Origin: Metarhizium brunneum
Taxonomy: Eukaryota; Ascomycota; Sordariomycetes; Hypocreales; Clavicipitaceae
Assembly (NCBI RefSeq): GCF_013426205.1
Contig: NC_089422.1
Location: 1-64,000 of the forward strand
Length of the DNA stretch: 64,000 bases
Direction: 5' to 3'
In this document: one piece after another, positions 2,643-14,446 of the stretch
Layout: each line of letters opens with the position of its first letter
Position numbering within the stretch: position 1 is the stretch's first letter
Position numbers and translations under genes: made by a program
Notes under the pieces: generated by a model
Databases searched by the model: none
Seen by the model: the letters and a program-made list of their open reading frames with translations, nothing else
Told to the model about the DNA's origin: nothing

Positions 2643-5001
2643 TATTTAATAAGCTAAATATTTTTTAGAATTTAATTATAAAATTATTTATTAAAAGAAA
2701 TCTAAAAATAAATAAATAAATACTTTAAGTTAAAAAAGTAATTATAATATAAAAGTACTTATAATAATAAAATAACTTTTTAAGATTAATAAAAATAATA
2801 ATTTCTAATAAAAATAACTAAATATTATACTAAAAATATAAAATAAAAACCTAATATATAAAAAAATCTAATAATAAGTAAAAAAAAAAGTTAGGTTTAT
2901 AAATATATTAAAAGAATATTTTATAAAACCTAAAATAATCTTAATATATTATAAAAAAACCTAGATATTATTAAAATTATAAAAAGAATATATTAAAAAA
3001 ATATATAAATACTTAGCTTATAAATACTAAGAAATTTATAAAATATTAGATAAAATATAATAATAATATAATTTCTTAGGAATTAAGAAAATAATTAAAA
3101 AGGTTATTAATAAATATATATAATATAAAAAAAGTAAGGCTTTATAATATAAGCTATATAAAAAATTATAATTCTTATTAATATTAATATAATTATAAGA
3201 ATTAATAGTTTTTAATTATATTATAAAGCTATTAATATTAAAAAAACTAATAATTAATATAAAATATAATAATATATTTATAATTATAAATAAACTTATA
3301 AAATATAAATACTTTTTATTATATAAAAAAATAAGTAATATAAAAAAACTTATATATATATTTTTATAAATAATAATAAGTAATTATAAGTTATTAAAAA
3401 AAATTATATTAAATAAAAAAAGTATATTTATTTTTAAGTTTTAATAAGTATTTATAATATAACTTAAAATAAATTATAAGTTAAATATTATATATTATTT
3501 ATAAATAAATAAATAAATAAAAAAATTAAATTAAATACTTAAATAATATTTATAATATTATATTAATTATTAATAAAATAATTAAATTAAATAATTATTT
3601 ATAATATAATTAGCTTATAATAGCTTAATATTAGAATTAATAAAGTAAATATTAGCTTATATTAATTATAAATTTAATTTTAAAATATTTTAAATATAAT
3701 ATAAAAAATTATAAGTAAAATAAGTAATATTATAAATAAATAAACTAAAAAAATTATATAAAAAAATATAATATAAATTAAAATTTATATAAAATAAAAT
3801 AATATAATATTATAATTATAAAAAATTAAAAAAATTAATTTTTAAGAAAAAAAATATAATTTATTTACTTTAATAAAATATTAAAATAATATAATTAAAT
3901 AATAAATTAAATTATAAAAAACTAAAATTATTTATTATTAAAAAATAAATATTAATAAATAATTATAAACTTTTATTATTAAAAACTATAAAAAATTATT
4001 TTATAATATATATTTTATTTTTTAAAAAAATATTAAATAATATATTAATAAAAAAAAATATTAAAGTTATAAATAAAATAAAATATAAAATAAAATAAAT
4101 TCTAAATATAAAAATAAAAAATAAAATATATTAATATTTTATTAAATAAAAAAACTATAAAAATAAGAAAAATATATAAAAGCTTATAACTAATTTAAGA
4201 AATTATTAAGTACTATTATAATAATACTACTAGTAGCTTATAACTTAATATTAAGTAAGGCGCTTTAATTTAAAATATTAAAAGTACTTTAGTTCTAAGT
4301 ATTATAAATAGCTTTAAACTCTTATTATTAAACCTACTTTAACTTATACTTTTAGGCTTTTTTCTTTTTTACCTTATAATTTATATTTTTTATTTTTTTA
4401 AAAGATTTAAAATTATAATAAGCTATTTTAATACTTTTTTTATATAATTAATACTTTATATAATATAATTATAAAAGATAATTAAAAGCCTTATTTATAT
4501 TATATTAGGCTTTATAAATTAATTTCTTTTACTTTTTATAATATTTTATAATAAGCTTTTTAGTTATTTTTTTCTTTTTTTTAAGCTAATAAAATTTCTT
4601 AGTAATATAATTTACTAGAATATATTAGCTAAATATACTATAATAAGAAAACCCTATATATATAATTTATTATAAAAGTATAAAAGCTATTATAAAAATA
4701 ACCTAAAAAATAATAAAGTATATAATAACTAATACTTTTAATAATCTAATAAAAACCTTTTTTTTTAAAGTAATAATTATAAGGTAATATCTTAAAACCT
4801 TATTTATAAATAAAAGTAATAATTATAATATAATTAGTAATAAAATAAGATTTTTTAGGTTTTTTTATATAATTAAATATAATAAAAAGAAAATATTATA
4901 AATAAGTAAAAAACTTATAACTAATAAAAGAAAAAGTAATAAAATTATTTATAAAATAAAGCTTAGATTTTAAAAGCAAAACTATAAAAGAAAGAATATT
5001 A

Positions 5002-5277
5002 TATTATAACCTAATTATAAGCTATAATAAAGGTTATAAATTAGGCTAGCTATATAAATTATTTAATAGCTTAAGTATAATAAGTAATAGATTAATAATT
5101 AAAATAAGCTATTAATAAGAAAAAGTTTATTAATTATTTAATAAACTTTAAATAAACTAATAATATATATATAATTATAATTTACTAGAATTTTAATAAA
5201 TAAAAAGTAAACTTTATAGTATATAAAAACTTTTAAATTTATTTTATAAATAAACTTTAATTTCTTAGCTTTTAATA
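5002..5277 (+). repeat. Decayed LTR, left part (split by insertion)
   Basis: It starts with a degraded TGTTACAACC-like end, follows the same course as the reverse complement of 2199-2642, and stops at the young element. The remainder of the same LTR continues at 13089. A purine run just before 5002 looks like a decayed polypurine tract, and no primer site follows the far end at 13263. It is therefore most simply the 3' LTR of an old element whose body lay to the left. Confidence 0.75.
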
Positions 5278-5713
5278 TGTTACGACCCAGCACGTAGGCT
5301 GCAGGTTGGGCCGGCTGCATGGAGCCGCCGGGCGGCACAGGCATGACGGGCCACGGAACATTGGTCGGCACGACAGGACCAATGGGAAGGACGCTCAGTT
5401 ATTATAAGTGAGCATGCACAACGCTCACCAGTGTTTGGAAGTGAGCATCGAGGATGCTCACCTCCGCGATAACTAGCAACCGTAGTATATAGGGACCCCC
5501 AAATTCGCTTCATAGATAGCCTCTAGCTCCTTAGCTTTCAACACAGATCATTACATTGAATAAGCCTCGCTTACAACTCTTTGACTCTGATCACTTGGTT
5601 ACGGTCTACGACCTATTACCAACGTAACACCCAACTGCTCAGATTGACTGCCCTAGTGGCTCTGCCAACATAAACTACGACTAGTTTATCCCTTGGGAAC
5701 CTTAGCCGTTACA
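5278..5713 (+). repeat. 5' LTR of the young chromovirus
   Basis: 436 bases, TG...CA ends, and no difference from 12653-13088 when compared base by base by eye. A TATATA box lies at 5486-5491. The predicted transcript start, inferred from the primer-site complementarity, is near 5533. The inner half (R-U5) matches the older decayed LTRs, while the outer half is more diverged from them. Confidence 0.95.
5486..5491 (+). promoter_or_regulatory. TATA box in the LTR
   Basis: TATATAGG lies about 45 bases upstream of the AGCTTTCAAC block that is complementary to the primer site, the spacing expected between a core promoter and the 5' end of the element's RNA. The same box sits at the matching place in the 3' LTR (12861-12866). 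Confidence 0.6.
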
Positions 5714-5724
5714 CGTTGAAAGCT
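5714..5724 (+). other. Self-priming type primer-binding site
   Basis: The bases just inside the 5' LTR read CGTTGAAAGCT. Ten of them (5715-5724) are the exact reverse complement of AGCTTTCAAC at 5533-5542 in the LTR, where the transcript should begin. This is the arrangement of Tf1/sushi-group chromoviruses, in which the folded 5' end of the mRNA replaces a tRNA primer. I see no obvious tRNA 3'-end complement, though I could not search tRNAs. The decayed copy at 2188-2198 keeps the same site. Confidence 0.75.
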
Positions 5725-5776
5725 CTTGTTCAGACTACTACCGCGTCACTCTGAGCAATACCTGATAACTGTCAAC

Positions 5777-8276
5777 ATGGCACCACGCGAGACTACCACC
5801 GCATCTGGATCCAATGAAACCCGAGAGGGACCAACCACCATCTCTGCTCACGACATGCTTGCTGAGATCATACGCCTTCGGGAACGGGTCCAACAGATGG
5901 AAGAAGAACGGCAGGAACAAGCCACGACTGCGGCCACAATTAAAAAGGACTTGGGAGAAATCCTTAGACCCAGGGCACCAGGACCGTACGACGGATCCCC
6001 GGGTGCGCTTCAAGGATTCCTCACTCAACTCAGGGCTTACCACCGACAATTCCCGACCAAAATGGAAGAATCCTCTGCCAAGGTACTGCACGCAGGAGGG
6101 TGTATGACGGGAGTGGCACTCGCATGGTTTGAACCCATTATGAGGGACTACCTTAACAAAGAAAAAGACGACCGCGAAGAAGAAACCAACACCATTTTCG
6201 AAAGTTACGATGAATTCGAAAAAGCTATCAAAAAGGCCTTTGGAACAGTTGACGAAGCTAGGGCTGCTGAGTACTACATCGACGGGCTCAAGCAGAAGGG
6301 ATCGGCATCCGATTATGCCGCTCGCTTCAGACAACTTGCATCTCAGCTTGACTGGGAGGACGAACCTCTTATGTCAGCTTTCTATAAAGGACTTAAGGAA
6401 GAAGTCAAAGATGAACTCTACAGGGAGAACAGACCAGACAACTTATCGGACTACATCGCTATGGCGGTACGAATCGACGACAGACAGTATCAGCGACGCA
6501 TACAGAAGAAACAGGGTAAAAGGAACCTGGAGCCCTGCCAAAGGGAAGAGTTACCAAGCCAATCAACGCAGAAAGCGTGACGAACCTATTGCCTATGGTC
6601 ACACTCTTAACCCTGGACGAATGGAGCTTGACGCTACCAAGAAAGACGACAAAAAGGAAAAGAAATGCTACAACTGCGGAAAACCAGGACATTTCGCCAA
6701 TAAATGCAAGAAACCCAGGAAAGAATGGAAGCCAGTACCAGAAGGAGGTAAGAAACAACTCAATTCTACTAACCAACAGAAAATCGAAGTTACCGAATCA
6801 GAGGTGGAACATAAGAACCTCAACTGGACCTTCTGCTATGACGACAACTGCTACGTTCACATGAGCAGCAAACAAGAAAGAGGATGGTTTCCAAAAGAAC
6901 CAAGAAAACCAAAGAAGAAAATTATGAACTTCATAGGAAACGGACTGCAAGTAGCCAAACAACTGGTACAAGAAGACCTGGACGAACAATCAATGGAAAA
7001 GAGAACGCTTGCAATGACGGGACGAAAGGAACTCCATGAACCAAAATCGCCAGAATATTTGGACGAAGACTCGCACCAAGAAATTCTCGATTGGGTGCGA
7101 CAACAAGCAGAAGCAAGGAAGAATCGAAGGGAACAACAATATAGGGAGGAGCAAGACGCACAAATCCTCACCACCTTCGACGAACCGGAAGATAGAGTAA
7201 GGGAAATGAGCGTCGATGACGACAACGCAATCCTAGATACTCCAGAAGCGTCCGAAGACGAACGAAGCGAGGAAGAAACGCCTGCAAGGCTGACAGCCAC
7301 ACAAGAACAAGCTGTACAGCGATATTTCCCCGCACCAACAGGAAAACATTTCGCAATTCCTATTCTAGCAGTGGACACCACCACGGCAATGGAAAACCAG
7401 ACACTATGGTTTCCGGAAGGAGAGAAGGAAGACGATCCTAGACTCTCACCAAGACACGCGGAACATACACGTTTAGCATGGGCATCATGCGCGTTTGCAA
7501 TGTGCCAGGCACACTTTCAAACCAAGGCACGATTGGATGCGTTTCCGATCAGGATGAAAGGATATCCGATCAAAGCACCATACTTCAGATGGGAACTCCT
7601 AGAATGGAGAGTGAAGATAATCAATAACGATCAAACGATGATCTTGGAACCCGATTCAAACACACCCATCAAATGCCGAGCTCATACAGATCCTACGGAC
7701 GTATGTGAATCAGACACATGCCAGTTACATGTACATACGAAGAACAGGCAGTGGCATCAGTATGTGTATGAGGGAAAAATCCCAACACACAGAAGGGAGT
7801 TACTACTCAAGTCACCTCGATGTGAAACAAAAGACCACATGGTATGCCCACTACCTAATTGTTCAGAACATATGGTAGATAAGGCCAGGGAATGGCACAA
7901 GTGGCAATGTGGAACACCAGCAGCATACAAACGGACACAGCGAGCATTAGACATACTCGAACAGAAAGACCCCAGGGGAACCACAGAATCAACATACCAC
8001 AGTGAACAACAGTTGGATAAGTGGTACAACGAACAGAAGTTCAACCCCAGATGCAACAGGAAATATGCGGTAAACTGCGACAACCCAAGATGCGAAAAAC
8101 ACGGAGAAATGAAAAACCAAATTTACAATCGCCTATGTCAAATGTTTGACGATGGGTTTTGCTTCAAGCACCCGCAAAACGGAACTGGACCTACAGAATG
8201 GTACCAAGAAATGAAACGACAAATCGCAGAAGAATCTATTCCGGAAAACTCAAAAAACGAGGCACGCCATCTGTAA
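5777..8276 (+). pseudogene. gag: Gag polyprotein (capsid, zinc knuckle, Cys-rich tail), frameshifted
   Basis: The start was taken at ATG 5777. The reading frame is open upstream to 5726, but that earlier ATG is close to the LTR. The first part (5777-6580) is a capsid-like helical region with the retrotransposon Gag core. The continuation is in the next frame up to 8276 and includes a CX2CX4HX4C zinc knuckle (CYNCGKPGHFANKC, about 6666-6707). A long tail rich in Cys, His and charged residues follows (motifs like CYDDNCYVH), as seen in fungal MAGGY-like elements. The frame change lies between about 6510 and 6560, before the zinc knuckle. It has no recognisable programmed slip site, so it is probably an indel. 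Gag ends at TAA 8274-8276, overlapping the pol frame. Confidence 0.8.
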
Positions 8277-8293
8277 AAGGGCTACAGGCTGGC
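8252..8293 (+). promoter_or_regulatory. Programmed -1 frameshift signal between gag and pol
   Basis: The heptamer A AAA AAC occupies 8252-8258 in exactly the right register of the gag frame (codons ending in A, then AAA, AAC). After a 7-base spacer, bases 8266-8275 (GCCATCTGTA) can pair with 8283-8293 (TACAG plus TGGC) around a 7-base loop, giving a hairpin with a small bulge. Slippage by -1 moves ribosomes from the gag frame into the protease frame, which is open here. Heptamer, spacer and stem all match known retroviral-type signals. Confidence 0.75.
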
Positions 8294-11200
8294 ATGAAAA
8301 GAAAGACGCTAATGACCCTCAACGCAACCCAGAACGGACGAAGCGACAAAATGGTATTAGACGCCGAAGTCATGGGACATCGCGTTCGCATACTTGTGGA
8401 CAGTGGCGCGATGGGCAACTATATCTCACCCAGAGTTGTGAATCGTTACCAACTACCGTGGAAACACAAAGAGGCACCATACGAGTTAACTGATATCGAA
8501 GGAAAACTTTTTGCCTATAATGACGGAATCATTAACCAAGAGACTGATCATCTCGAAGTACAGATTCAAAGTCATTCAGAAGTGATTCAACTCGATGTTA
8601 TGGACGTATCGGAACACGACCTAGTGTTAGGGTACCCATGGTTATGGGAGAGTAACCCACTGATCAACTGGAGGACAGGCCAACTGAAGTGGAACGAGAC
8701 TTCAGGCCAACAGAATCAGCAGAATTCGGAAGAAAGAACGAAATTTCGTCATAACTTAGCTCATGAACAGAGTTCTGAAGAAAAAGAACCTTCAAGCAAG
8801 TTATCCAAGGACCAACGACAACAAACAAGCGGCAGAAAAGCAGTCAAAACAATTGGATCCACCGTAACGACCTCGACGGCGCTACAAACCGGGATACGAA
8901 CAACAATAAGCAACAAGAAGACAAAAGCCAAGATCCGAAAGGTTATTGCCACCTTAAGGAAAGACCTCGCGAACACAAACAAGAAACTCGAAGGAGAAAA
9001 GAGGAACGAGAACGATAAAGACGACAAAAGCCCAATAACGAAAGAAGAAAGACTCAAGAATATCCCTAAGGAATACCGGAAATACGAAAAATTATTCGCA
9101 GAAGAATTAGAAACCGGATTACCAGAACACAGCCAATGGGATCATCAGATTGAATTGATAGACGGAAAGTCGACAACATTCCATAAGATTTACAACTTAA
9201 ACGCAAGAGAACTCGAAACACTACGGGAGTACATCGACGAGATGTTAGCGAAAGGCTACATCAGAGCATCCACATCAGAAGCTGGATACCCAGTTATGTT
9301 TGTTCCAAAGAAAAACGGGAAACTGCGGTTAGTAGTGGACTATCGGCGATTGAACGCGATTACCATGAAGGATCGAACACCGTTGCCACTAATATCGGAA
9401 CTACGGGACCGATTGCACGGAATGAATTGGTTCACCGCTTTGGACCTGAAGGGAGCATACAATTTGATTCGAATAAAGAAAGGCCATGAATGGAAGACAG
9501 CCTTTAGAACGAAGTTCGGACTATTCGAATACCTGGTAATGCCATTCGGGCTTACCAACGCACCAGCGACATTCCAACGAATGATCAACAGCGTACTACG
9601 AAAATATTTGGACAATTTTGTGGTAGTGTATCTGGACGATATACTGATCTTCTCAAAAACCCTGGAAGACCACAAAAGACATGTACACAAGGTACTACAA
9701 GCGCTACAAGACGCGAAGTTACTAGTGGAACCAGCAAAAGCAAATTCCATACCCAGGAAGTAGACTTCCTAGGACACACGATACGACCAAACGAGATACG
9801 AATGGAAAAGACAAAGATTGAGGCAGTAAGGAACTGGCCAACACCGAAGAATGTCAAGGACATACAAAGCTTTAGAGGCTTTGCGAACTATTACAGGAGA
9901 TTCATCAAGAGCTACGGCGAAATCGCAGCACCCTTGGATGAACTCACCAAGAAGGATAAGCAGTGGAATTGGAACGATGAGGCGCAATGTGCCTTTGACA
10001 AGATCAAAGAACTCATCACATCCGAACCTGTTTTGAGAACCTTCGACCCAGAAAAAGAAACGGAACTAGAAACCGACTCATCAGACTTTGCTCTAGGAGC
10101 ACAAGTTGGACAAAGAGACGATGACGGAAAACTACACCCTATTGCGTTCTACTCGAAGAAACTTCATGGAGCAGAACTCAACTACCCCATCTACGACAAA
10201 GAATTCCTAGCAATCATCAATGCTTTCAAGGAATTTAGACACTATCTCATGGGAAGCAAACACAAAGTTAAGGTGTATACCGATCATAAGAACATCTCTC
10301 ATTTTGCGACGACGCAACAATTGAATGGACGACAAATTCGATGGGCCGAATATCTTTCAGAATTCGACTACGAAATCATCCATCGAAAAGGATCCGAGAA
10401 CGGACGAGCAGACGCTCTAAGTCGAAGAAGCGACTACGATACAGGAGTACCTACAGCAACAGGACCACTCCTTGAGATCAATAAAAATGGCAATTTCCAG
10501 CAGAAACAACTGAATGCCATATTGAAAGTACAGAAAGAAGACCCAGTATACGGCAAAATACACCAATGGGCAACAGACAATATACAACACATTGGGGACG
10601 TACCGACGGGATGCACATGCCACCCAGGAGGAGTACCAATGTATGGAGAGAAAATCTGGATACCACCAGAATTACAAGAAGAATGCATCAAAGAAATGCA
10701 TGAACATCCAGTCTACGGACATCAAGGAATCCGCAAGACACTGGATAAGATACGACGACAATACGATTTCTCAGGAATCAAGAAAATGGTCGAAAAGGTT
10801 GTCAACGAATGCATACAATGCGGAAAAAGTAAGGCTTCACGACATAAGCCATACGGAGAACTGCAACCATTACCAGTACCAACACGACCATGGGAATCGA
10901 TAGCTTTCGATCATATTACGAAGCTACCAATGTCAAAAGAACCAATGACCAACGTGGAATATGACAGCATATTCGTGGTCACGGATAGACTCACAAAATA
11001 CGGATACTTTTTACCGTACAGAGAAGCAAGCAATGCAGAAGAACTTGCATATGTGTTCTTACGAACAATAGCAAGTAACCATGGACTGCCAGAAGAAATC
11101 ATATCGGACAGAGGAAGTACATTTACTTCTAAGTTTTGGCAAGCACTTATGGCACAACTTGGAACGAATCACAAGTTAAGCACCGCATACCATCCACAGA

Positions 11201-11982
11201 CAGATGGACAGACGGAAAGATTGAACCAGACGCTTGAACAGTATCTACGATGTTACATCAATCATCAACAGGACGATTGGGTTAAATGGTTACCTACAGC
11301 GCAATTGGCTTACAATAGCTCGATATCAGAATCGACAAAGCAAACACCAGCCTACGCCAATTACGGATTTAATCCCGAAGTATTTCGAACACAGCGCGAA
11401 GGACCGCAAGCAGAACGAGCGATGCTGCAAGCAGATGAACTGAAGAGATTGCACGAAGAAATGCGACACGAATTGGAATTCGTACGAAACAGAATGGCAC
11501 AATACCATAATCGTAAAAGATCGAAGGGACCAATCTTTGGGGAGGGAGACATGGTCTACCTACTCCGACGAAACATCAAAACAACGCGACCAAGCGACAA
11601 ATTGGACTACAAAAAATTAGGACCATTCGCTATCAAGAAAAGAATATCGACAAACAACTACGAACTTTCATTACCAAAGACTATGAGGAATCATCCTATA
11701 GTACACATTTCACTTCTTGAGAAAGCACCAAACAATGCACCAGCAGAAGAAGACATCGAAGTCATGAACGAAACGGAATATGAAGTAGAACGGATCTTAG
11801 ACATGAGGACAAGAAACAAAACACGCCAATATCTCATTAAATGGAAAAGCTATGGAGACGAGGAAAACACATGGGAACCTACGGAGCACCTGAAGAATTG
11901 CCAGCACCTATTACGGCAGTATCACCAGCAGCATTCAACAAGGCATCCCCAAACACAGCGTTCCAATCCAACACGTCAATAG
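8252..11982 (+). pseudogene. pol: Pol polyprotein: PR, RT, RNase H, integrase, chromodomain; frameshifted in RT
   Basis: Pol is entered by -1 frameshifting near 8258. The protease has the DSGA active-site motif at about 8400. The reverse transcriptase follows, with LDLKGAYN and the YLDD catalytic box near 9630. At about 9740 the frame changes by one base inside the reverse transcriptase (a 1-base loss fits), giving a stop at 9763. The rest is open in another frame to 11982. This part holds RNase H (TDSSDFALG), the integrase HHCC zinc region (HEHPVYGHQG...CIQC), the integrase DDE core (FDHITK, SDRGSTF, then E) and a C-terminal chromodomain (about 11780-11930) that would direct integration to modified histones. 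Apart from this break the catalytic motifs are complete. Confidence 0.9.
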
Positions 11983-12524
11983 CGCCTAGAGATTGCGCAT
12001 CGATAACAGCCTCGGATTCGCGACGCTCCTCCTCCTCCAACTCATCCAGCGATTGCAGACCCAAGCGAGTCATTTGTTGACCCTTGGTAACCAACTGCCG
12101 CTTTTGGCGGCGCAGTCGCGCTAGACGGGCCAGCGCTTCATTCAACTCAGCCTGAGCCTTGAGCATTTGCTCTTCCGCTCTCTCTTCCTCCTGATCCAAA
12201 CGTTTCGATTCGGAAATAATGCGACCAACTACAAGGACACTCATTAGCAAAAAACAGTGACACACAAAAAGGACACCTACGCGAGCTAATCGCGACACCA
12301 GAAGCATCACAGGAACGCCCCCGCCGCACGCATTCCCCGCACTTGGAGGAACGCTCAATCATCTTGCAACGAAGACCACGGGCGGAACAAAAGGAACACG
12401 GCATGACGTCGTAACCAAACGATTCAATGGAATCAGCCAAGCGATCGTTCCGTAAGGTAGAAGGAGCCTTCAACGAGGGATCTTTTCGCTTTCGGGTACG
12501 AGGAACGACGGTACGACTGGACAT
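11879..12524 (-). CDS. Antisense spliced gene of the retrotransposon, Cys-rich plus coiled coil
   Basis: On the strand opposite pol, an ATG at 12524 opens 244 coding bases. An intron at 12229-12280 (GTAGGT donor, GCTAAT branch, TAG acceptor, 52 bases) joins it to 350 more bases ending at TAG 11879. The spliced frame is continuous at 197 residues. Residues about 41-72 hold a CX2CX6CX9CX2CX6C cysteine pattern resembling a binuclear zinc cluster (CSFCSARGLRC...CGECVRRGRSC). The second exon is a long charged helix rich in Glu, Arg and Leu, probably coiled coil. The 3' end overlaps the pol chromodomain region by about 100 bases. I recall similar small proteins being abundant in fungal gene sets, probably from such elements. 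Function is unknown. Confidence 0.65.
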
Positions 12525-12636
12525 GGCGTCAGAAGGACATCACAAAGGATGAAAAGAAAGAGGAACTTACCAACGAAAAGAAAAGGGCAGAGGAACTACT
12601 TATGAAACAAGGCCTAGGTCTTGAGGACAAGACCAT

Positions 12637-12652
12637 GGGAGAGGGGACATCG
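12637..12652 (+). other. Polypurine tract of the retrotransposon
   Basis: GGGAGAGGGG lies directly upstream of the 3' LTR, with six bases between it and the TG end. This is the expected plus-strand primer. The decayed LTR at 5002 is preceded by a corresponding A-rich purine run. Confidence 0.6.
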
Positions 12653-13088
12653 TGTTACGACCCAGCACGTAGGCTGCAGGTTGGGCCGGCTGCATGGAGC
12701 CGCCGGGCGGCACAGGCATGACGGGCCACGGAACATTGGTCGGCACGACAGGACCAATGGGAAGGACGCTCAGTTATTATAAGTGAGCATGCACAACGCT
12801 CACCAGTGTTTGGAAGTGAGCATCGAGGATGCTCACCTCCGCGATAACTAGCAACCGTAGTATATAGGGACCCCCAAATTCGCTTCATAGATAGCCTCTA
12901 GCTCCTTAGCTTTCAACACAGATCATTACATTGAATAAGCCTCGCTTACAACTCTTTGACTCTGATCACTTGGTTACGGTCTACGACCTATTACCAACGT
13001 AACACCCAACTGCTCAGATTGACTGCCCTAGTGGCTCTGCCAACATAAACTACGACTAGTTTATCCCTTGGGAACCTTAGCCGTTACA
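12653..13088 (+). repeat. 3' LTR of the young chromovirus
   Basis: 436 bases identical by eye to the 5' LTR at 5278-5713, followed by the TAATA target-site repeat at 13089-13093. Identity of the two LTRs, which are copied from one template at insertion, implies a recent event. Confidence 0.95.
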
Positions 13089-13263
13089 TAATATAAATTA
13101 TTATATTAAATAAGCTTTACTTATAACTTTTTATTTTTAATTACTTAGTTATAATTTATAACTTATTATTAATATAATACCTAGTTACTTAAATTAATTA
13201 CTTTAGTTATTCTACTAATATAAACTATAACTAGTTTATCTCTTAGAAACCTTAGCCGTTACA
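13089..13263 (+). repeat. Decayed LTR, right part (split by insertion)
   Basis: From 13089 the sequence lines up with young-LTR positions 5539-5713, carrying many C to T and G to A changes but keeping the terminal CCTTAGCCGTTACA. Together with 5002-5277 it forms one LTR of about 446 bases, allowing for the duplicated TAATA. Confidence 0.85.
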
Positions 13264-14446
13264 CTCTTATTCTTTTTAAATAATTTTTTTTAATATTTTA
13301 GTTTTTTATATTTTATATACCCCTAAAACTTTACTTTTATTAATACTTTTTAATTAGACCTAAAATTTAATAATAGTTTTTCACTTAGTTCCTTAAGTTA
13401 ATTATATACTATTACTATATTTTCTAGCGTAATATTACTAATAAAATCCCCTTTTCTTACTTTCAATAATAATATAATACTATCTAACAGCCCAATACTA
13501 TTTTAGATTTTACGCTTGCACGATACTTGTATTATACGTGTAATTTTATTTAACTACAAAGCGAAACAACCAACAATTAATAATACTATCTAATATTTAG
13601 TAGTATAATAATTACATGTATAAAATATATAAATCGCAAGTTATAAGTACTACCTAGCTATTAATATTTATTATTCTAGTCCCTTAAAGTTTTAAATTTA
13701 CTTGCTTTAGTATTTAACCCTAGACCTTATAATTTATATAAGTAAATATTATAGTATAAGACAACCTTTTACGTATATAGCTAGTTTATTATTATAACTA
13801 ATTTATTTAGTATAGTATTTACGCGCTTAGTAGTATTAAAAGAATAATACCTTATATAGTATATTAATAAAGTAAAAGATTTTAGTTAAATTTACTGTAA
13901 GTATTATAAGCGGTTTAAAGTAAAGAATAATATTAGTGGAGATCCGGTAGCCGGAGAATAACTTATCCTAAATTATATCCACGGCTATATATAAAGATTT
14001 ATTAATAAGTTTTAGTTAAATCCTAGATTGCTTATAGCTGACGTGCGTATTACCTTCCTGCTGCCTGCTAGGCAGTAGGGGGCCTCAGGTAATATATTGG
14101 TATACACTATATATTAAGCTTATAATATAATTTTAAAAGAATATTAAATCTACACTTATAAAGTAAATTAAGTCTCTTGTAAGCTATAACTACTTGGGCC
14201 TTTAGTTCGGGCCTAGTTGAAAATACCAGGCTTGTTGGAAGCCGGCTACAGCTTACAGCTTATAGCCTATAACCTATAAACTAGGCTAGTTGATAGCCGG
14301 CCTTTAGTATATAATAATACGTAGAATAGTAAACTATATTCTGGTATATCCTACTACTAACTAGTATGTTGTAATAAACTTAAACTTCTTGTATGTAGTC
14401 TAAGATATAAGTTAGCACGGTAAATATATCAAGACTCTAGGCTGCT
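13264..14446. repeat. AT-rich stretch, no gene
   Basis: Mostly AT-rich, less extreme than 144-5277, with patches of normal composition at about 13920-14100 and 14200-14300. I see no open frame or primer-site match next to the LTR end. A short palindrome (CTGCCTGCTAGGCAG, about 14063) and a GCCGGC-containing patch near 14250, loosely like the LTR outer end, are the only recognisable marks. Confidence 0.6.

Follow-up and report, generated by a model that had tools for sequence, protein, structure and literature searches.

We analyzed a 64,000-nucleotide (nt) stretch of the Metarhizium brunneum genome (positions 1 to 64,000 of contig NC_089422.1; hereafter the window), which hosts a retrotransposon with long terminal repeats (LTRs) whose 3' end carries a spliced gene on the reverse strand. 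This antisense gene recurs in three sister types of the element (A, to which the window copy belongs, B and C), and its protein resembles Zn2Cys6 DNA-binding domains. Between types, the gene differs together with an array of palindromes in U3 (the unique 3' region of the LTR), which suggests that each element has its own on/off switch. We consider it rather probable that this gene acts on the LTR of its own element as a self-specific regulator and is inherited as a cassette with an operator in U3.

The gene starts with an ATG at 12524 and ends with a stop at 11879 of the reverse strand, and its spliced product has 197 residues. Coordinates and translation agree with the initial annotation of this DNA, which had described an intact spliced antisense gene with a 52-base intron. 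The gene and its surroundings are composed of the following features:

12281 to 12524, reverse strand: exon 1, 244 nt (81 codons plus one base), with the cysteine cluster CX2CX6CX8CX2CX6C.
12229 to 12280, reverse strand: phase-1 intron, 52 nt (GTAGGT...CTAATG...GTAG), conserved in place and phase in types A, B and C.
11879 to 12228, reverse strand: exon 2, 350 nt, with a long helix (presumed coiled coil), a DW motif and the stop at 11879.
11879 to 11982, both frames: 104-nt stretch in which the 3' ends of the antisense gene and pol overlap tail to tail.
12525 to 12652, reverse strand: antisense leader, with a donor-like GTAAGT site at 12570-12565 and a TATA-like stretch at about 12605-12597.
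About 12637-12647, forward strand, within 12525 to 12652: purine-rich run, taken as the polypurine tract.

As also stated in the initial annotation, splicing alone unites the cysteine-rich part with the helical part: without splicing, the exon-1 frame spans 125 amino acids (aa) with a tail of unrelated sequence, and exon 2 is read in a different frame. The helix of exon 2 is taken from the structure model of a homologue, P0010. The leader bears GTAAGT in types A, B and C, 38-46 nt upstream of the ATG, and a TATA-like stretch that reads CATAAGTAG in A, CATAAATAG in B and TATAAATAG in C. The antisense gene may therefore be transcribed from a promoter of its own and contain a leader intron, for which the site at 12565-12570 of the antisense strand is a possible donor. 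Several homologues are annotated with a start at the methionine of MPCSFC instead. In one type A copy (L024) the exons are unaltered, the intron has 51 nt through a one-base length change, and a frame of 219 codons is open across it. The homologue P0001 seemingly reads through an intron too, and intron retention of this kind could give a longer protein.

The whole element extends from 5278 to 13088 and includes:

5278 to 5713, forward strand: 5' LTR, 436 bp, TG...CA, identical to the 3' LTR, with the 5-bp target duplication TAATA.
5777 to 8276, forward strand: gag region (Retrotrans_gag, Ty3_capsid-like, zinc knuckle), with a frameshift private to the window copy.
8198 to 11982, forward strand: pol region (protease, reverse transcriptase, RNase H, integrase, chromodomain), with a frameshift private to the window copy.
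12653 to 13088, forward strand: 3' LTR, 436 bp, identical to the 5' LTR.

Along pol, the Pfam domains follow the order RVP_2, RVT_1, RT_RNaseH, rve and Chromo. We assigned the element to the Ty3/gypsy chromoviruses because of its Pfam set from gag to chromodomain and its LTRs with 5-bp duplications. The search of the whole genome (37.8 Mb in 7 contigs) returned 17 near-identical copies of type A, the 16 others being more than 99.9% identical to the window copy. Fifteen of the 17 have a pair of identical LTRs with a 5-bp duplication of their own on either side; the remaining two lie in tandem, seemingly with one LTR in common. The gag and pol frames, of 832 and 1261 aa, are uninterrupted in all type A copies except that of the window, whose frameshifts may be assembly errors near the telomere. 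The term 'broken retrotransposon', used in the initial annotation, therefore applies to the window copy, where gag and pol are each frameshifted, and not to the family. The same annotation had contrasted the broken gag and pol with the intact antisense frame. This contrast is no evidence of selection, because the breaks are private to one copy and the antisense exons are unaltered in 16 of the 17 copies; in the other, exon 1 differs in length by one base. The element is a recently active Ty3/gypsy chromovirus, and the antisense frame is a genuine spliced accessory gene. The element lies in the subtelomere at the edge of inverted repeats, in which 2368-2645 pairs with 5001-5278 (87%) and 2145-2373 with 13089-13317 (79%).

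The sister types B and C are represented in the same genome by 8 and 3 copies. With 40 of 45 candidates scored, 28 copies have a pol that is 88% identical or more (17 of A, 8 of B and 3 of C), and every one of them has the antisense gene behind pol. Another twelve matches to pol, with 67-76% identity, were left out of this count; four of them were inspected and showed either a shift toward AT or many stops, as expected from repeat-induced point mutation (RIP). A 3' LTR follows the antisense gene in all 17 A copies, in the three B copies inspected for it and in the three C copies. In one A, six B and three C copies read, the intron lies in phase 1 at one shared codon and measures 52, 49 and 58 nt in A, B and C, respectively, and aligned intron positions are identical at 25 of 47 sites between A and B and at 28 of 51 between A and C. 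One of the six B copies has lost both the GT and the ATG, and the B and C copies have stops in exon 2. In the window itself, 4199-4615 holds what is left of the antisense gene of a sister type (27% identity, E 3.4e-9, 14 stops), in subtelomeric DNA rich in AT; it was probably mutated by RIP.

The protein search that the initial annotation had called for, run over 5.8 billion proteins, returned 52 relatives of the antisense protein. Profile searches, with about 8000 candidates scored in each, gave 93 and 108 matches that overlap with these 52, for an overall collection of 174 distinct homologous proteins. The closest named matches are Metarhizium proteins. Other named homologues come from Colletotrichum, Verticillium, Fusarium, Cryphonectria, Cytospora and Thermothelomyces, among others, and further ones from Trichoderma, Pseudogymnoascus, Lachnellula and Periconia; we take these genera to represent three classes of Pezizomycotina. 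Searches of viral contigs, genome contigs and plasmids for further elements found no relative. Since homologues occur in many fungi and the place and phase of the intron are kept in the sister types, the antisense frame is not a product of chance. Its presence in three types (all 28 copies) and in many fungi also led us to reject recent capture by one copy; the initial annotation had offered a captured gene as an option. One homologue from Pseudogymnoascus, P0149, has a precomputed PF11917 domain, which reflects either a fused gene model or a genuine domain combination.

The cysteines of the window protein follow the spacing CX2CX6CX8CX2CX6C, which falls within the pattern that defines Zn2Cys6 domains (CX2CX6CX5-12CX2CX6-8C). 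This six-cysteine pattern is found in 121 of the 174 collected proteins, 76 of which have exactly the spacing of the window protein; many of the other 53 are fragments without the cysteine part and some are minus one cysteine. In the structure model of P0010, a long helix stands behind the cysteine cluster, and the matches of this model, although weak, are almost exclusively Zn2Cys6 DNA-binding domains (HAP1, GAL4, PUT3, PPR1 and LEU3). The cysteine cluster and long helix that the initial annotation had noticed thus appear in the sequence and in the homologue model, respectively. Neither the window protein (11.2 bits) nor P0010, the best by E-value in the 41-member set A3 (18.1 bits), reaches the Pfam Zn_clus cut-off of 21 bits, and we therefore call the protein Zn2Cys6-like rather than a member of the family. 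A profile search against sequences of the PDB gave 11 matches, all with E of 0.06 or worse and seemingly limited to helical stretches. The initial annotation had proposed that the protein regulates or packages the element: the regulatory part of this proposal is plausible and the packaging part is unsupported. In Zn2Cys6 (Gal4-type) factors of fungi, the first loop typically contains a basic run, and the sites recognized are CGG. The antisense protein shares their cysteine spacing, and the model of its homologue matches their domains and has a long helix behind the cluster; unlike them, the antisense protein it scores below the Pfam cut-off, does not have the usual basic run, and its proposed sites are GTGANC.

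The ratio of nonsynonymous to synonymous substitutions, proposed in the initial annotation, could not be used among copies, because those of type A are more than 99.9% identical and the sister and older copies contain stops and RIP-type changes. We compared codon positions in nucleotide alignments between types, with the pol overlap excluded. In exon 2, the differences between A and B at codon positions 1, 2 and 3 are 39, 30 and 55 out of 82 each (p=0.00016, position 2 versus 3), and those between A and C are 49, 34 and 49 (p=0.03), in the order expected for a coding frame. Exon 1 gave no coding signal in the same test (A/B p=1, A/C p=0.07). In a protein-guided version, position 3 varies most outside the pol overlap, a result biased by the alignment. 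The protein family itself is the main evidence for the presumed constraint on the antisense gene.

To describe how the types differ, we compared one copy of A with one of B, excluding RIP-type changes from the percentages of gag, pol and the second LTR half, and A with C from the integrase part onward. Between A and B, the aligned gag, pol and second LTR half differ by 0.7-2.2%, except for one reverse transcriptase patch at 5.1%, while exon 2 differs by 32%, exon 1 by 39% and the spacer by 21%. Within the LTR, the divergence is 14% at positions 1-100, 51% at 101-200 and 2% at 201-436. The comparison of A and C returned 1.8-3.8% for the integrase part, 41% and 34% for the exons, 11% for the spacer, and 13%, 44% and 3% for the same three LTR segments. 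The two stretches with most divergence are therefore the antisense gene and the U3 segment of approximately 100 nt that precedes the TATA box. The type B copy that was read (L027) is missing about 1.1 kb of gag after the zinc knuckle when compared to type A.

The LTRs carry the following features, with the palindromes of the 3' LTR proposed as operators:

12783 to 12803 (3' LTR): first palindrome, GTGAGC-N9-GCTCAC.
12816 to 12836 (3' LTR): second palindrome, GTGAGCATC-N3-GATGCTCAC.
5408 to 5428: first palindrome in the 5' LTR.
5441 to 5461: second palindrome in the 5' LTR.
12861 to 12866, forward strand: TATATA, presumably the LTR core promoter, with its counterpart in the 5' LTR at 5486-5491.

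Each type has an array of its own in the divergent part of U3. Type A has GTGAGC-N9-GCTCAC in two occurrences; type B has GTTCAC-N10-GTGAAC two times and one more GTGAAC, with the second palindrome altered by RIP-type changes in two of three copies inspected; type C has ACCGTGATCC-N9-GGATCACGGT once, in all three copies. The half-sites are thus GTGAGC, GTGAAC and GTGATC, respectively. The dyad arms measure 9, 11 and 10 nt in A, B and C, as compared to 5-8 nt in control windows of the same LTRs, and the longest dyad was reached in 10, 0 and 0 of 2000 dinucleotide shuffles. For the count of the commonest 6-mer, the corresponding numbers are 3, 0 and 212. Plain shuffles reached the arrays 6 times for A, never for B, and 1 and 2 times for two copies of C, again out of 2000. 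Within the 112 nt that precede the TATA box, GTGANC or its complement is present 4, 5 and 3 times in A, B and C, against 0.05 to 0.12 expected from internal regions (2.15 kb for C), with the motif picked after the arrays had been seen; of the two C copies included, one has GGTCAC as its third site. Genome-wide, the A pattern is found at 71 places and its reversed control at one, and 1 of 50 listed places has a spacer unlike those of the LTRs. The B pattern is found at 24 places, all with LTR-type spacers, and its reversed control at 10. Type D (L057, G000:C4:4391700-4392800), a fourth kind of 3' end with a strong shift toward AT, has the dyad GTTACTCTT-N4-AAGAGTAAC before its TATA box, which we did not count as support because 50 of 2000 shuffles reach it.

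For expression, nuclear entry, dimerization, DNA binding and the sign of the effect, we infer the following course. Antisense transcription would be driven by a promoter that lies in the 128-bp spacer or in the 3' LTR, and the protein would go to the nucleus and dimerize via its long helix. Its Zn2Cys6-like domain would then bind the palindromic GTGANC sites of its own U3 and set the transcription of its own element type, with the variable base of the half-site GTGA[G/A/T]C telling self from sister types. The effect would most likely be repression or copy-number control, although activation is possible. We favor the former by analogy, because HBZ, the spliced antisense regulator of human T-cell leukaemia virus type 1 (HTLV-1), lowers sense LTR transcription (PMC3185765). 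A single template switch where pol ends, combined with one first-strand transfer, would carry gene and U3 along together. More tentatively, LTR elements of filamentous fungi may have exchangeable 'immunity' cassettes, each made of an antisense Zn2Cys6-like dimer and a matching U3 array of GTGANC sites. Each type would control only its own kind, and sisters with the same gag-pol would escape through a cassette swap by template switching, as heteroimmune phages do.

The joint divergence could also reflect linkage only. A real accessory gene with another role (chaperone, nucleic-acid packaging, integration or nuclear import) would be exchanged whenever template switching replaces the whole 3' end, with U3 then copied to both LTRs. 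The break points do lie near the end of pol and the border between U3 and the repeat region R, where template switching would put them. Other mosaic patches occur in pol, at 9001-9850 of the window (about 5% between A and B without RIP-type changes) and at about 10401-10800 (A/C transversions up to 0.13 per site), pointing to recombination between types. We nevertheless judge this explanation unlikely, as it accounts neither for a dyad array with related half-sites at approximately the same place before the TATA box of each U3, nor for the likeness of the protein to a DNA-binding domain.

LTR promoters commonly use host factors, and the palindromes could be sites for a host transcription factor, with the antisense protein acting elsewhere, on host genes or on the complex of Gag and RNA. 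The link between protein and array is, after all, one that we infer. This is quite improbable, given that GTGAGC-N9-GCTCAC is nearly confined to the LTRs of the type A family and that a host site is not expected to switch base with each sister element. Least probable of all is control by the antisense transcript rather than the protein, through double-stranded RNA with pol or U3 and consequent RNA silencing of the element: the 104-nt overlap with pol would allow it and the available part of PMC7264820 names the possibility for such genes, yet it requires no conservation of the protein across fungi, of the cysteines or of the intron, all of which are kept.

Regulation of the own LTR by the antisense protein, which we favor, can be compared with several known systems. 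Antisense genes at this position are already known from fungi and plants. In the Boty-like Ty3/gypsy elements of Botrytis cinerea, the extra gene brtn lies antisense between pol and the 3' LTR of an element with gag, reverse transcriptase, integrase and chromodomain, according to the available parts of PMC7264820, PMC8365987 and PMC4227169. No name containing BRTN occurs among the homologue matches listed. The family does have matches in Pseudogymnoascus and Lachnellula, presumably of the same class as Botrytis. The brtn gene of Boty-like elements is reportedly the subject of Zhao et al. 2011 (Virology 417:248). Three points appear to be new in the literature searched, although that study might contain part of them: the protein is Zn2Cys6-like, its intron is conserved, and the gene varies together with the palindrome array. 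In plants, the aORF-3R genes of Grande (gene23), RIRE2, Retand and PvRetro13 have the same place and orientation as the Metarhizium gene, and for gene23 an upstream promoter and a nuclear location are reported; unlike here, the accessible text mentions neither a Zn2Cys6-like domain nor type-specific U3 arrays for them (PMC7264820). The same source states that the role of antisense genes at the 3' ends of LTR retrotransposons is unknown. The present case offers a concrete candidate for it, with a protein class, a site in the own promoter, a proposed one-base difference in specificity among three sister types and a route by which the cassette could spread. HBZ, transcribed from the 3' LTR of HTLV-1, is likewise a spliced antisense gene, comparable to our candidate regulator as a functional analogy only: it belongs to an unrelated virus, is a basic leucine zipper rather than a Zn2Cys6-like protein, and, as far as described in the part of PMC3185765 available, displaces CREB and p300/CBP, whereas direct binding to palindromes is proposed here. 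If true, our reading would point to a way in which a single nucleus can house several closely related families. The immunity region of lambdoid phages consists of a repressor plus its operators. By analogy, and with no claim of homology, the Metarhizium elements are otherwise similar and differ in a putative DNA-binding protein and in palindromic sites, and they would represent a retroelement counterpart of these regions.
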